Shown piece by piece: positions 2,528 through 29,489 of a stretch of DNA of 29,489 nt. This stretch comes from a virus. The DNA lies in the IMG/VR virus record IMGVR_UViG_3300044970_000716, positions 1 through 29,489 of that record; one strand, given 5' to 3'. The stretch's first letter is position 1; every line of letters begins with the position of its first letter. The notes below the pieces were generated by a model. The model ran no database searches and was not told the origin of the DNA. It was given only the letters and a program-made list of their open reading frames with translations. The position numbers and the translations under genes were made by a program.

Positions 2528-2973
2528 CGGTCCAAGATATTGATCGTGGCTGGCAAGCCATCAAGCGCGAAGTTGAAAAGGCGCAAGGCCAGATTGTGGC
2601 AGTTGGCATTCTGTCTGGAGCGGATAACGATGGTGTGAGCATCGCGGAATACGCCACTTACAACGAATACGGCACAAAGAATATACCATCGCGCCCGTTC
2701 ATGGCAATCTCGTTTGATGAGGGTCGCGCAGAGATTGATGCGGATTTTGAGCGCCAGATTGATGCGCTGGTGACAGGTAAGGCAACCGCAAATGTTGCAT
2801 TAACCATCATCGGCCAGAAGCACGTCACGCGGATTAAAAAAACGATTACCGGGCGCAATATTCCGCCTCCACTCTCACCGAAAACCGTTGCGCGCAAAAA
2901 AGGCTCCAGTAAAACATTGGTGGATACCGGCGCAATGGTCAACGCAGTACAGATCGAATTGCGAAACAAATGA
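2524..2973 (+). CDS. HK97 gp10-like / minor neck or tail-completion protein
   Basis: 149 residues from ATG 2524. The central segment VAVGIL-x-GADNDGVSIAEYATYNEYGT followed by IPSRPFMAISFD is characteristic of small morphogenesis proteins related to HK97 gp10, which act at the head-tail joint: a conserved A-x-Y-N-E-[YF]-G-T then P-x-R-P-F. The C-terminal half (PPPLSPKTVARKKG, then LVDTGAM) is also typical, with a TG-[ASE]-[LM] tail. An in-frame upstream extension to 2491 exists, but ATG 2524 forms the ATGA overlap used throughout this operon, so I prefer it. Confidence 0.75.
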   Translation: MTVQDIDRGWQAIKREVEKAQGQIVAVGILSGADNDGVSIAEYATYNEYGTKNIPSRPFMAISFDEGRAEIDADFERQIDALVTGKATANVALTIIGQKHVTRIKKTITGRNIPPPLSPKTVARKKGSSKTLVDTGAMVNAVQIELRNK

Positions 2974-3356
2974 GCACATTCCGCAAGCCGCTTTCCGTAT
3001 TGCATGAAACCACAGGCACATACACCAATGGCGTATGGTCTGGCGGTACGCGCAGTGTTTCATCCGTGCAGATGTCAGCACAGCCGCTAAACTCCGGGCA
3101 GGAAATGGAATCGCTGCCCGAAGGAAGGCACTTGTCCGAAGCCAAGAAATTCTATTCGTCGGTGAAGTTGAAAACCACGGCAGACGGCGAAAACATTCAG
3201 CCTGATATTATTGTGCATGGCGGATATGGCTACGAACTGGTGAGCGCATTTGATAATCAGTCCGGCGTTATTAGTCATTACAAATACATCGGTATTAAAA
3301 TATTCAAAGTCAGTTCCACAACGGATTGGACAAACGGAACATTGAAAAGGCCATAA
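2970..3356 (+). CDS. Putative head-closure/neck protein
   Basis: 128 residues with a predicted beta-rich fold. It starts with PLSVLHETTGTYTNGVWSGG, a pattern resembling head-tail joining (head closure) proteins in which a short strand precedes G-x-[YW]-x-x-G-x-W-x-x-G. It also contains SAQPLNSGQEMESLPEGRHL, similar to the T-x-x-E-x-x-P-E-G-x-[RH] segment of such proteins. It is coupled by ATGA to the gp10-like gene and followed at once by the next ATG (TAA then ATG, no gap). The assignment rests mainly on position and this weak resemblance. Confidence 0.6.
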   Translation: MSTFRKPLSVLHETTGTYTNGVWSGGTRSVSSVQMSAQPLNSGQEMESLPEGRHLSEAKKFYSSVKLKTTADGENIQPDIIVHGGYGYELVSAFDNQSGVISHYKYIGIKIFKVSSTTDWTNGTLKRP

Positions 3357-3947
3357 ATGTCTAGCAATATCGACACCAGCATTCCGCCATTGGGCAATGC
3401 CACGACATCCGGCGTGCGCAACAACTTCACCAGCGCAAAAACAGAAATTGAAGCATTGCAGCAACAGGTCGGATTCGTTGATTACAATGACGCGGCCACT
3501 GGCGTTACGCCTATTTCTGTTTCATCGGACACATGGACTAAGCTGACAAATGACAAGCTGGGACCATTCACGTTCAATGATTCACTACCGGCAGGAATTA
3601 CAACCGTCTGGAATTCGACAACCAACCAATTTGCGTTTTCCGAATTGCCGGTAAAGACAATGGTTGAATTTCGCTCAGACATTGAGGTTACGACAAGCGG
3701 CCCTAGTCAGATGGTTAAGTCTCGTCTGTCATTTGGCATCGGCTCGGCCAGTGCCTTCTATTTGCCAACAACAGAATCAACATTCAAGTCAGCCGCAGCA
3801 CATCAAATGGTGCTGAATATCCCGTTTTATGTCGGAAGCAACGACATCAAAAATTACCCTGCTGAATACCAGATTTACAGCGACGGAGCCTGTACCGTGC
3901 GCGTGAACGGGTGGTATATCCGCGTGATTAAATATCTGTGGGAGTGA
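3357..3947 (+). CDS. Virion surface/decoration-like protein
   Basis: 196 residues. The N-terminal ~35 residues (SIPPLGNATTSGVRNNFTSAKTEI) match a linker found in many phage structural proteins: a P-x-x-G-x-x-T-T-x-x-V-R-x-N-F motif followed by a short coiled segment. The rest looks like a single beta-sandwich domain with alternating hydrophobic strands, ending VNGWYIRVIKYLWE. A head fibre or decoration role is likely; enzyme motifs are absent. It lies among neck genes but, unlike them, does not overlap the preceding gene (stop and start directly abut). Confidence 0.6.
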   Translation: MSSNIDTSIPPLGNATTSGVRNNFTSAKTEIEALQQQVGFVDYNDAATGVTPISVSSDTWTKLTNDKLGPFTFNDSLPAGITTVWNSTTNQFAFSELPVKTMVEFRSDIEVTTSGPSQMVKSRLSFGIGSASAFYLPTTESTFKSAAAHQMVLNIPFYVGSNDIKNYPAEYQIYSDGACTVRVNGWYIRVIKYLWE

Positions 3948-17881: not shown

Positions 17882-18237
17882 TGCAAGGCGTTGTTATGGC
17901 GTGGGGATACATGCTCTGGGCGGTGAATATGTTGTGCGGCGCGCTGATTGTGCAGCACGCCATCTGCAATCTGTCACGTTGGAAATACACAATACGCAGC
18001 CTTGCCCTGTGGGGCAATGCGCTGATGCTGGGCGGCGGCTTGCGGGTATTGCTGGCGTTTGGCGCACACGAAAACCCCGGCTTCGGGGAAGTGCTTATCA
18101 ATCTCGGCGTGGCGCTGTTGAGCGTGCGAAGCATGCGGCGCATTTACCGGGAATATGCCGACGATCCGAATGGGTTGTGGTCGCATGCTAAAGCCGAAGC
18201 AAGGCGCATTTTTGAAATGATTAGGGCTGGAAAATGA
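17881..18237 (+). CDS. Membrane protein of lysis region, holin/antiholin candidate
   Basis: 118 residues from ATG 17881; a GTG at 17878 is also in frame. It has up to three hydrophobic stretches (VVMAWGYMLWAVNMLCGALIV; LALWGNALMLGGGLRVLLAF; EVLINLGVALLSV) and a highly charged C-terminal tail (RRIYREYADDPNG; KAEARRIFEMIRAGK). That topology is common among second lysis-region membrane proteins, such as antiholins. I do not recognise a named family. The ATGA overlap at its end leads into an HNH-like endonuclease gene that appears inserted ahead of the endolysin. Confidence 0.6.
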   Translation: MQGVVMAWGYMLWAVNMLCGALIVQHAICNLSRWKYTIRSLALWGNALMLGGGLRVLLAFGAHENPGFGEVLINLGVALLSVRSMRRIYREYADDPNGLWSHAKAEARRIFEMIRAGK

Positions 18238-18794
18238 ACATGACTCCAACAGCACGATCATCAAACGGAACGCCGCTTTTTCAAAACCATTGCCCAGATT
18301 GTGGCAAAAACAGAATGAGCGACAAGCGCAGGATTGGCAAACCGTGCATGGCGTGCGCAAACAAAAGGCGCGCAACTCACGGATTGGCTGGACATCCGCT
18401 TTACAAGCTGCTACAGGCAATTAGGGTTAGATGCAATTATCCGTCTGCCACTAATTATGCGTATTACGGCGGCCGCGGAATTTATGTCTGTGACGAATGG
18501 GAGTCAGATCCGCAAGCGTTTGTAGATTGGGCAACAGAAAACGGATATGAGAAAGGTCTAGAGCTTGATCGGATTGATGTCAATGGACCATATTCTCCAT
18601 CTAATTGCAGGTTTCTAGATCATGCGCAAAACAGCCAGTTGCGCCGTAATGCCCAGTGTGACATAGAAAAAGCAAAGCAAGTGAAGCGCGCTATAGGAGA
18701 AGGTAAATCTGTGAAGGATGCCGCTGTTCTGATAGGGGTGCCGTACATGGTTGCGTGGCACATCAGCAAGGGTAATACATGGAGAAATGCATGA
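18234..18794 (+). CDS. Zinc-ribbon HNH-like homing endonuclease
   Basis: 186 residues. A zinc ribbon at about 20-45 has CPDC and CMAC pairs. The core YYGGRGIYVCDEWES, with F-x-x-W, then LELDRIDVNGPYSPSNCRF, matches a large phage family of HNH-type endonucleases: G-R-G-I-x-V-C-x-x-W, then L-D-R-I-D-x-x-G-x-Y-x-P-x-N-C-R-[WF]. The C-terminus (GKSVKDAAVLIGVPYMVAWHISKGNTWR) is a helix-turn-helix used for DNA contact in such mobile genes. It lies between a membrane protein and the endolysin, probably a mobile insertion. It overlaps both neighbours by four bases, so lysis gene translation stays coupled. Confidence 0.8.
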   Translation: MNMTPTARSSNGTPLFQNHCPDCGKNRMSDKRRIGKPCMACANKRRATHGLAGHPLYKLLQAIRVRCNYPSATNYAYYGGRGIYVCDEWESDPQAFVDWATENGYEKGLELDRIDVNGPYSPSNCRFLDHAQNSQLRRNAQCDIEKAKQVKRAIGEGKSVKDAAVLIGVPYMVAWHISKGNTWRNA

Positions 18795-27223: not shown

Positions 27224-29489
27224 TTAAGCAAATAATCCGGCCTGATCTGTGCGCGCATCTTCTATGTTTTGGCATGCCAACTCATAATAAGATGGCTTCA
27301 ATTCAGTGCCGATAAATCTGCGATGCATTTTGATGGCGCAATATCCCTCTGAGCCAATTCCAGTAAACGGGCTAAATACCAGATCGCCTTTATTTGTCCA
27401 CAGATGAATGCATCGCTCAATCACGTCCAATTGCAACGGGCACATATGCTTGGTGTCGTTTTCATCGCGGGCTGGCAGCTTGTTGAGCGTGCGGCTTTGA
27501 TTGATATCGTCCCAGATCGGGCTTGCATATTTCTGCCACATCAAAACAGGAAGATCATCGCCATGCGTTACGCGATCTTCGCAGTCTCCAGGCTTACGCA
27601 TGGTGACAACATAATCAGGCAGTCCTTGGCGGCACATGGTAGAGTTTTCGCGGATTGTTTTGTGCAGCAAACCGAGTGCCTTTGTGCGCTGCATGGCTAC
27701 AACTGGATCTTTCCAGATGCACACTTCTGAATGGTAAATAAAACCTTCTTCTTGAAACGTGCGAATCAGATCGCCGCGAAAATCGCGCAAACCAATAAAG
27801 CCTTGGCGCATTTTGGTTGTCGGCAAATTCATGCAATGAAACGAAACATTGCGGCCAGGCTTTAATACGCGATATAGCTCTTTTACAAGATATTTAAACT
27901 GATCTGCAAATTCTGTATCGTTTTTGCAATTGCCCATATCATGGTCACTGTTTGAATATGTGAAAAGGTCGGCAAACGGAGGACTAAAAAGTGAATAATC
28001 AATGCTGTTATCTTCCATGCGCTTTGCCAACTTCACGCAATCGCCCAAATGCACTGTATATCCATCGCCAATATGCGTATCTTCACGATATTCGTCTACG
28101 ATGTTTTCTTGGCCCTTTAGTTCATTATTCATAATGTCTTTCATGTGCTCGATCATATTTGCGCTGATCTGATGATGCTGTTCTTCTTTGCGTTTCAGGT
28201 TTGCAAGAATCTGTCCTTCATTTTCAGAAGTGAACAAATGCACTTGCACATTTCGCTTTTGGCCGAAACGATAACACCGCCTTACGGCCTGATAAAACTT
28301 TTCAAATGAATCATCCAGCCCAACAAACGCCATGCGTGCGCAATGTTGCATGTTCAAGCCATATCCGAACATGCGTACCTTAGTCACTAGAACTTGATTA
28401 TTTTTTGTGGCGCCGCAAGTACATTGCGGCTGATTCGAGTCGCTCTGGATTGTCTTGGAATTTTCCAATTCCGAGATTGCATGGTGAGCATAAAAGTCCT
28501 CTGACGGACCCAGAGTTATGGCAGTGATCAACGTGGAATCTTCCTCCTCGACTGTCTCCAGTGTTCTTGCTTCCGCAAATTGCACACCCATGATCTTGCT
28601 CTGCAAGCATTCTTCGATAGTCTTCTCCGGTAATACCGTATTTTTTGACTCTTTGGTTAAGTCTTGCTTCTGGATTTTCTGCTTGCCATTGCTTTGCTTT
28701 TGCGCGTGCAGTGTCTCTGACTTTTGGGTTGTTTGCGTATTGCTCTCTGCGTTTTGCGAGTCTTTCTTCCCTTGTCTTGTCTCTGTACTCTCGCATTTGC
28801 TGCTGCAATTTTTCTTTGTTTGCTGCGTAGTACTTTGCGTTGTATTCGCGTCTTTCATCAGCATTTGCTTTTTGATAAGCTGATGCTTCCGCGATTCGTC
28901 TTTCTCTGTTTTTTGCGTAGTACTCGCGCTGGTAGTTTGGGTTTTGTCTTGATGTTGGCATGATGCCAGTTTAGCACTAAAACGCTTATCGCCGCAAACA
29001 CATTTTTTCCCTGTAAACCAAGCAATCGCGTCTGTTTTAAAGTCATCTTGGTCATTTCCTTGCACATTGACCGCGCGATGGATCAATTTTTCTAGCAATT
29101 CAGCCTCATCATTCAAGTGACACCAAATAATCCATGGCTCTGAAGTATCCGCATTCACCACATCAGCCAAGGCTTTACATCGGGCTTCCAGGCTATCACG
29201 CTGCGCCTTGCGTCGCTCTTGCAGCGTTTGCGCCGGACGCGCAAACAATTCATCGGTGACCGCATTTGCCTCTACTACATGCTCATGGTATTCCAGTGGC
29301 GGCAAGATATATTCCGCTCCATCAAATCCAATATCTTCTGGATTGCGCACCACAACGGCCCACGTTCCCATCCATTCCCAGAAACGAGACTGGCCCCATC
29401 CCTTAAGCCTCCATGTGCCTGTGTCTCCGGTGTCATTGACAAAATACGTTGCCAGCATTTCAGTGCGCGTCATGACTCCCAAATATTCG
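27224..29489 (-). CDS. SNF2-type helicase C-terminal domain fused to DNA methyltransferase; carries an endonuclease-coding insertion; partial at right edge
   Basis: The frame enters from the right edge with an EYLGVMTRTEMLATYF segment that looks internal, so I treat it as partial. It has three parts. First and third, an SNF2-like helicase domain: EPWIIWCHLNDEAELL, then VTKVRMFGYGLNMQHCARM, SFEKFYQAVRRCYRFGQKR (motif VI). Second, between CVCG and CTCG knuckles, a ~190-residue low-complexity stretch rich in Thr, Gln, Lys, Ser and Asn that overlaps the endonuclease at 28398-28961 in another frame. The C-terminal ~280 residues are a beta-class N4/N6 methyltransferase, with SPPF (motif IV) before FSPFTGIGSEG (motif I). 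Likely role: modification and remodelling of phage DNA. Confidence 0.85.
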   Translation of the reverse strand, partial: EYLGVMTRTEMLATYFVNDTGDTGTWRLKGWGQSRFWEWMGTWAVVVRNPEDIGFDGAEYILPPLEYHEHVVEANAVTDELFARPAQTLQERRKAQRDSLEARCKALADVVNADTSEPWIIWCHLNDEAELLEKLIHRAVNVQGNDQDDFKTDAIAWFTGKKCVCGDKRFSAKLASCQHQDKTQTTSASTTQKTEKDESRKHQLIKKQMLMKDANTTQSTTQQTKKNCSSKCESTETRQGKKDSQNAESNTQTTQKSETLHAQKQSNGKQKIQKQDLTKESKNTVLPEKTIEECLQSKIMGVQFAEARTLETVEEEDSTLITAITLGPSEDFYAHHAISELENSKTIQSDSNQPQCTCGATKNNQVLVTKVRMFGYGLNMQHCARMAFVGLDDSFEKFYQAVRRCYRFGQKRNVQVHLFTSENEGQILANLKRKEEQHHQISANMIEHMKDIMNNELKGQENIVDEYREDTHIGDGYTVHLGDCVKLAKRMEDNSIDYSLFSPPFADLFTYSNSDHDMGNCKNDTEFADQFKYLVKELYRVLKPGRNVSFHCMNLPTTKMRQGFIGLRDFRGDLIRTFQEEGFIYHSEVCIWKDPVVAMQRTKALGLLHKTIRENSTMCRQGLPDYVVTMRKPGDCEDRVTHGDDLPVLMWQKYASPIWDDINQSRTLNKLPARDENDTKHMCPLQLDVIERCIHLWTNKGDLVFSPFTGIGSEGYCAIKMHRRFIGTELKPSYYELACQNIEDARTDQAGLFA
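28398..28961 (-). CDS. Endonuclease VII-type HNH endonuclease, nested in another frame
   Basis: 187 residues from ATG 28961; an in-frame TAA lies four codons upstream, so this is the first possible start. The N-terminal ~100 residues are a Lys/Arg/Glu/Tyr-rich helix of short repeats (YYAKNRERRIAEA; YYAANKEKLQQQ). The C-terminal part is a recombination endonuclease VII/HNH core: YGITGEDYRRMLAEQDHGCAICG, then FHVDHCHNSG, then GLLCSPCNLGIG, with two CxxC zinc pairs and the D-H-C-H metal site. The whole gene lies inside the helicase-methyltransferase gene on the same strand in a shifted frame, with no good ribosome binding site. Confidence 0.85.
   Translation of the reverse strand: MPTSRQNPNYQREYYAKNRERRIAEASAYQKANADERREYNAKYYAANKEKLQQQMREYRDKTREERLAKRREQYANNPKVRDTARAKAKQWQAENPEARLNQRVKKYGITGEDYRRMLAEQDHGCAICGSKNTGDSRGGRFHVDHCHNSGSVRGLLCSPCNLGIGKFQDNPERLESAAMYLRRHKK

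Follow-up and report, generated by a model that had tools for sequence, protein, structure and literature searches.

Endonuclease VII-family HNH genes nested within open helicase frames of phages as probable dual-coding insertions

Introduction

The endonuclease of an intein is usually fused to it in frame. In the "fractured genes" of split inteins, by comparison, an endonuclease gene lies between the two halves of a host gene, and these halves are separate genes joined through protein trans-splicing. HNH homing endonuclease genes are also found inside conserved coding sequence, as with mobE in nrdA of Aeromonas phage Aeh1, and mobA in a topoisomerase gene of T4 (PMC2988022). In these closest published cases the host gene is split (PMC2988022), and no description of nested or overprinted homing endonucleases was found in the open-access literature. 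In viral overprinting, the new protein usually arises within an old gene (PMC8227390). This work describes HNH genes of the Endonuclease VII family that lie within other genes, the frames of which stay open through the insert.

Results

The window, by which we mean the whole stretch of DNA analysed, is an entire IMG/VR virus record of 29,489 bases. On its minus strand, a frame open from 29488 to 27224 (754 codons, the 5' end being off the window) carries both the motifs of an SNF2-type helicase and a fused N6/N4 DNA methyltransferase domain (27275 to 27997; PF01555, 2e-17 in a profile search). The helicase motifs align with those of homologues; the Helicase_C match itself, over the motif V-VI region at 28262 to 28405, is weak (PF00271, 0.0067) and under the curated cut-off. 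A second IMG/VR contig, L002, matches the window with 100% identity along 1987 nt and reaches further upstream, supplying the helicase 5' end and a complete outer ORF of 933 aa in a single frame with its own ATG. Through the same bases, at a one-base offset (the outer frame being the HNH frame +1), runs a second minus-strand ORF, from 28961 to 28398, of 187 aa plus a stop. Its product matches Endonuclease_7 (PF02945, 6.8e-25 in a profile search), with the DHCH catalytic motif and zinc CxxC pairs intact.

Alignment with homologues lacking the insert places it at 28397 to 29002 on the minus strand, with its ends uncertain by a few bases. It therefore spans about 606 nt, or 202 outer codons, of which 564 nt are the HNH ORF. 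The 3' junction is the position of the HNH stop codon, directly followed by the motif V-VI region, whereas the 5' leader (28962 to 29002, minus strand) lies outside the HNH ORF and contains TTTAGTGCTAAACTGGCATC-ATG. In the outer frame, the insert reads as a loop rich in T, Q, K, S and N immediately before helicase motif V. The earlier note on this DNA had reported a 188-codon endonuclease frame with both motifs intact, an SNF2-methyltransferase frame open through the same bases with a one-base shift, and a Thr/Gln/Lys/Ser/Asn-rich outer reading, all of which are borne out here. Elsewhere in the window, a GIY-YIG-like ORF at the left end (198 to 1004) and an HNH-like ORF (18234 to 18794) look like mobile endonucleases by eye only.

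Close homologues of the helicase, with C-terminal halves that are 80-86% identical, were found in about 80 viral contigs, and all were uninterrupted at the insert site: the window reads ...FTGKK, then the insert, then QVLVTKVRMFGYG, versus ...FAHGDIRVLVSKPKIAGFG in the homologues. Among phage records, the best matches by coverage to the window HNH were in the isolate Gordonia phages Malisha and Squiddly, where a 176-aa HNH is nested within a 619-aa helicase ORF, in the same relative frame as in the window. In the related phage Holliday, the helicase is 431 aa long and lacks the HNH. Hence the presence/absence criterion of a homing endonuclease is met twice, by the empty sites of the viral contigs and by the comparison of Malisha with Holliday. 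The insertion sites differ, being before motif IV in Malisha and before motif V in the window, and the HNH proteins share only about 43% identity, despite a nearly identical leader common to both, TTT[A/G]GTGCTAAACTGGCA[T/A]C-ATG. A scan of viral contigs for the leader GTGCTAAACTGGCANCATG had the L002 contig as its sole match. Malisha gp71 and Squiddly gp64 are annotated only as DNA helicase, meaning automatic annotation overlooks the nested HNH. Searching bacterial genomes for the helicase returned no matches in 369 and four in 385. In one locus (L069, 1685-3449), a helicase homologue is interrupted close to the N terminus by extra DNA of about 1.4 kb with three unrelated ORFs, which may be a rearrangement or misassembly.

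A survey of viral contigs, bacterial genomes and phages scored Endonuclease VII loci for an open host frame. Among the 235 Endonuclease VII ORFs examined, 16 were nested in an open host frame, representing 15 independent loci, in the sense of different contigs with divergent sequences rather than proven separate insertion events. The hosts of these 15 were 13 SNF2 helicases or helicase-methyltransferases, one terminase large subunit and one terminase intein. Besides the window and Malisha/Squiddly, the SNF2-helicase cases were L240-L243, L245, L246, L248, L259, L317, L323 and L380. All other nested HNHs scanned matched PF02945 (invariant residues in A2); the HNH ORFs of L317, L323, L380 and L390 were identified by homology only, without a profile scan. 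In the terminase large subunit gene of L202 (1922-4291; PF03354 and PF20441), the HNH (2815-3318) separates the ATPase domain from the nuclease domain within an open outer frame, and terminases with an empty site were found. In L390 (1868-4342), an HNH (2833-3426) is nested in a terminase large subunit intein (PF14890), out of frame with the intein. In a tree of the HNH proteins, the nearest relatives of nested genes include free-standing ones, and the nested state changes 12 times; with its deep branches unresolved, the tree neither shows nor excludes a single origin of nesting.

Several superficially similar arrangements were set aside. Plasmid hits with long gaps (H101 and H102) had extra genes between helicase and methyltransferase, with no nested HNH, and the HNHs overlapping tail or virion genes in phage hits H198, H205, H246 and H249 were ordinary intergenic genes. 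In the Azospirillum and Rhodoplanes plasmids (L170 and L171), the helicase and methyltransferase genes are separated by an extra gene, which encodes a hypothetical protein in Azospirillum and a DNA cytosine methyltransferase in Rhodoplanes.

The open outer frames could in principle reflect ordinary gene-splitting insertions that disrupted the helicase, with openness arising by chance, aided by the Lys/Arg/Gln-rich composition of the HNH; known precedents such as mobE do split their host (PMC2988022). In simulations that fixed the HNH protein and sampled synonymous codons at the usage of the flanking host gene, the outer frame was open with a probability of between 0.0002 and 0.36 per locus. 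For the window, this probability was 0.03 with the codons of the flanking gene, and 0.10 when those of the HNH itself were used, making the openness of this locus alone suggestive only; at the GC-rich Malisha and L317 loci, where it was about 0.35 each, single-locus openness could be chance. Shuffling a nested gene's own codons is, alone, a weak test, because its codon choice already avoids stops. Against chance, firstly, the summed log10 P was -22.8 over the 15 loci, and about -19 (a combined P of ~1e-19) for the 13 helicase loci that remain without L202 and L390. Secondly, the +1 frame contained at least one stop in all 219 of the other, non-nested Endonuclease VII ORFs; the HNH of L244, between a complete helicase gene and a methyltransferase gene, has four +1 stops. 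Thirdly, the open frame is not confined to one offset, being +1 in 12 of the 15 loci and +2 in three (L248, L259 and L323). Fourthly, because openness itself defines nesting, loci were also selected by position alone, as Endonuclease VII ORFs with the N half of a helicase upstream and the C half downstream: the outer frame was open and in phase through the insert in 14/14 such loci (13/13 independent). The criterion for gene splitting, a host frame ending at or in the insert, was thus not met. Hence it is the recurrence, and not the window alone, that puts openness far beyond chance, and gene splitting is an improbable account of these loci. Past the insert, L241 has an in-frame TAA (position 3643) about 35 codons downstream, in a conserved helicase motif, after which the frame resumes into the methyltransferase; the outer gene of L241 may be broken, the TAA being a nonsense mutation, a sequencing error or a site of recoding.

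Slightly more doubtful than gene splitting is removal of the insert from the RNA or protein, by a self-splicing intron, an intein or ribosomal bypass, such that the outer frame would not be read through. HNH endonucleases are frequent in group I introns and inteins, and intein splicing motifs surround the nested HNH of L390. However, Rfam searches of the window and 16 related loci, at permissive and gathering thresholds, gave no credible intron or structured RNA, and only about 42 nt of the window insert lie outside the HNH ORF, too few for a group I ribozyme. Profile scans of the outer frames of the helicases likewise detected no intein family, the terminase of L390 being the sole exception overall. 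Furthermore, neither splicing nor bypass needs an open outer frame, yet the outer frame was always open.

The third alternative, that programmed frameshifting fuses the N half of the helicase to the endonuclease, draws on the HNH frame coming after that of the helicase, on the same strand, at a one- or two-base offset. Nevertheless, the nearest upstream stop in the HNH frame precedes the start of the HNH by no more than 19 codons in 13 of 15 loci, and in the window it is a TAA in the leader, three codons upstream, meaning that a shift upstream of the stop would terminate. Frameshifting also leaves the open outer frame unexplained, and is very unlikely. The proximity of these stops instead makes it probable that the HNH is translated from its own start. 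At L317, this is a GTG with an upstream TAA in the HNH frame. A Shine-Dalgarno-like match was present at the HNH start in 8 of the 15 loci; the window HNH start had no good match. Finally, although the window and L002 are both metagenomic assemblies that could come from related samples, an assembly artefact or sequencing error is effectively refuted by the same architecture in the separately deposited isolate genomes of Malisha and Squiddly, as well as in many divergent contigs.

The constraint on the two frames was compared in one close pair of nested genes, those of Malisha and L317. The HNH proteins are 76% identical, versus 50% when the same codons are read in the outer frame. The differences by HNH codon position number 34, 23 and 76, being mostly at third positions, which are the second positions of the outer frame. 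This pattern is therefore indicative of protein-level selection on the HNH, albeit in a single pair. The outer frame, judged from the same pair of sequences, appears to be required mainly to stay open.

In the aligned helicases, inserts occur at only two sites, the turns leading into the strands of motifs IV and V. An AlphaFold model of the window helicase with its insert had pLDDT mostly of 80-95 in the flanking lobes and below 60 for most of the insert, which is accordingly predicted to be a disordered loop between well-folded helicase lobes. At the 5' base of the loop, the outer frame encodes CVCG (28991 to 29002, minus strand), a possible metal-binding half-site inferred from the residues themselves, and at the 3' base CTCG (28412 to 28423, minus strand), which overprints the HNH residues MYLRR. 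Similar CxC and CxCG motifs occur in L246 and L241, such that these pairs are present in three of the five motif-V insertions; that they form a metal-binding clamp at the loop base is a guess.

Discussion

The nested open frames, empty sites, recurrence and conservation of the HNH protein observed here, without recognisable introns, are probably best explained by mobile endonuclease genes persisting as dual-coding insertions; translation of both frames, activity of the loop-bearing helicase and homing are inferred. A mobile Endonuclease VII-type HNH gene would have entered the helicase gene where it encodes a surface loop immediately ahead of motif V, in a manner that preserved the total frame and introduced no stops into that of the host. 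Ribosomes starting at the helicase ATG would then read through the outer frame, generating a helicase-methyltransferase with a disordered loop of about 200 residues, while those starting within the insert would make the endonuclease. The endonuclease would presumably cut insert-free helicase genes of co-infecting phages, and spread by repair, its mobility being inferred from patchy distribution only.

The further proposals of the earlier note are also supported. Its inference that an endonuclease gene had been inserted with the host left continuous, to be checked against homologues with and without the insert, agrees both with the empty sites and with nested cases in other phages, which extend to 13 independent SNF2 helicases and two loop positions. 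Its view of the outer frame as a disordered loop is supported by the low model confidence across the insert, which remains a prediction for an inferred translation, and its expectation that neither intron nor intein splicing is needed fits the searches of the helicase loci. It had suggested comparing constraint in both frames, and in the one pair compared the outer sequence was much freer than the HNH; it would have been refuted by outer frames routinely broken by stops, and none was broken within the insert among the 14 loci between helicase halves.

If dual coding is correct, a selfish gene can inhabit an important gene without splicing machinery, by keeping a second frame readable. These loci would then constitute a natural experiment, in which alleles from before and after the acquisition of dual coding are clearly distinguished, and would explain low-complexity loops in phage helicases. 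By extension, some "disordered inserts" in annotated proteins may be the shadows of hidden genes. We lean, with rather less assurance than for dual coding itself, towards a separate homing-endonuclease lifestyle, in which the endonuclease gene itself forms the insert that is tolerated, its second frame kept as an open disordered linker of the host. The endonuclease family would have taken up such a lifestyle repeatedly, using either alternate frame, with helicases, terminases and an intein as hosts, and a cysteine knuckle (CxC...CxCG) may seal the loop at its base.

The arrangement shares features with each of several known systems. As in split-intein "fractured genes", there is an intervening endonuclease gene, although there the halves are separate and depend on protein trans-splicing. 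As with intron- and intein-encoded homing endonucleases, an intragenic endonuclease coexists with a preserved host product, but the helicase cases involve neither intron nor intein; L390, in a terminase, does have an intein, though its endonuclease is not in frame with it. Free-standing Endonuclease VII-type HNH genes, such as the 13.5-type genes of T7-like phages, belong to the same family (PF02945), but sit between genes, and their alternate frame has stops in the sample examined. The mobE and mobA genes are likewise inserted within host coding sequence, outside introns and inteins (PMC2988022), but there the host is split into polypeptides that must reassemble, whereas here the host frame is continuous through the other, open frame of the insert. 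Lastly, viral overprinted genes similarly have two open frames on the same DNA (PMC8227390), yet the roles are exchanged: here it is the old protein, the HNH, that is imported, and the host frame that gains new, apparently disposable sequence.
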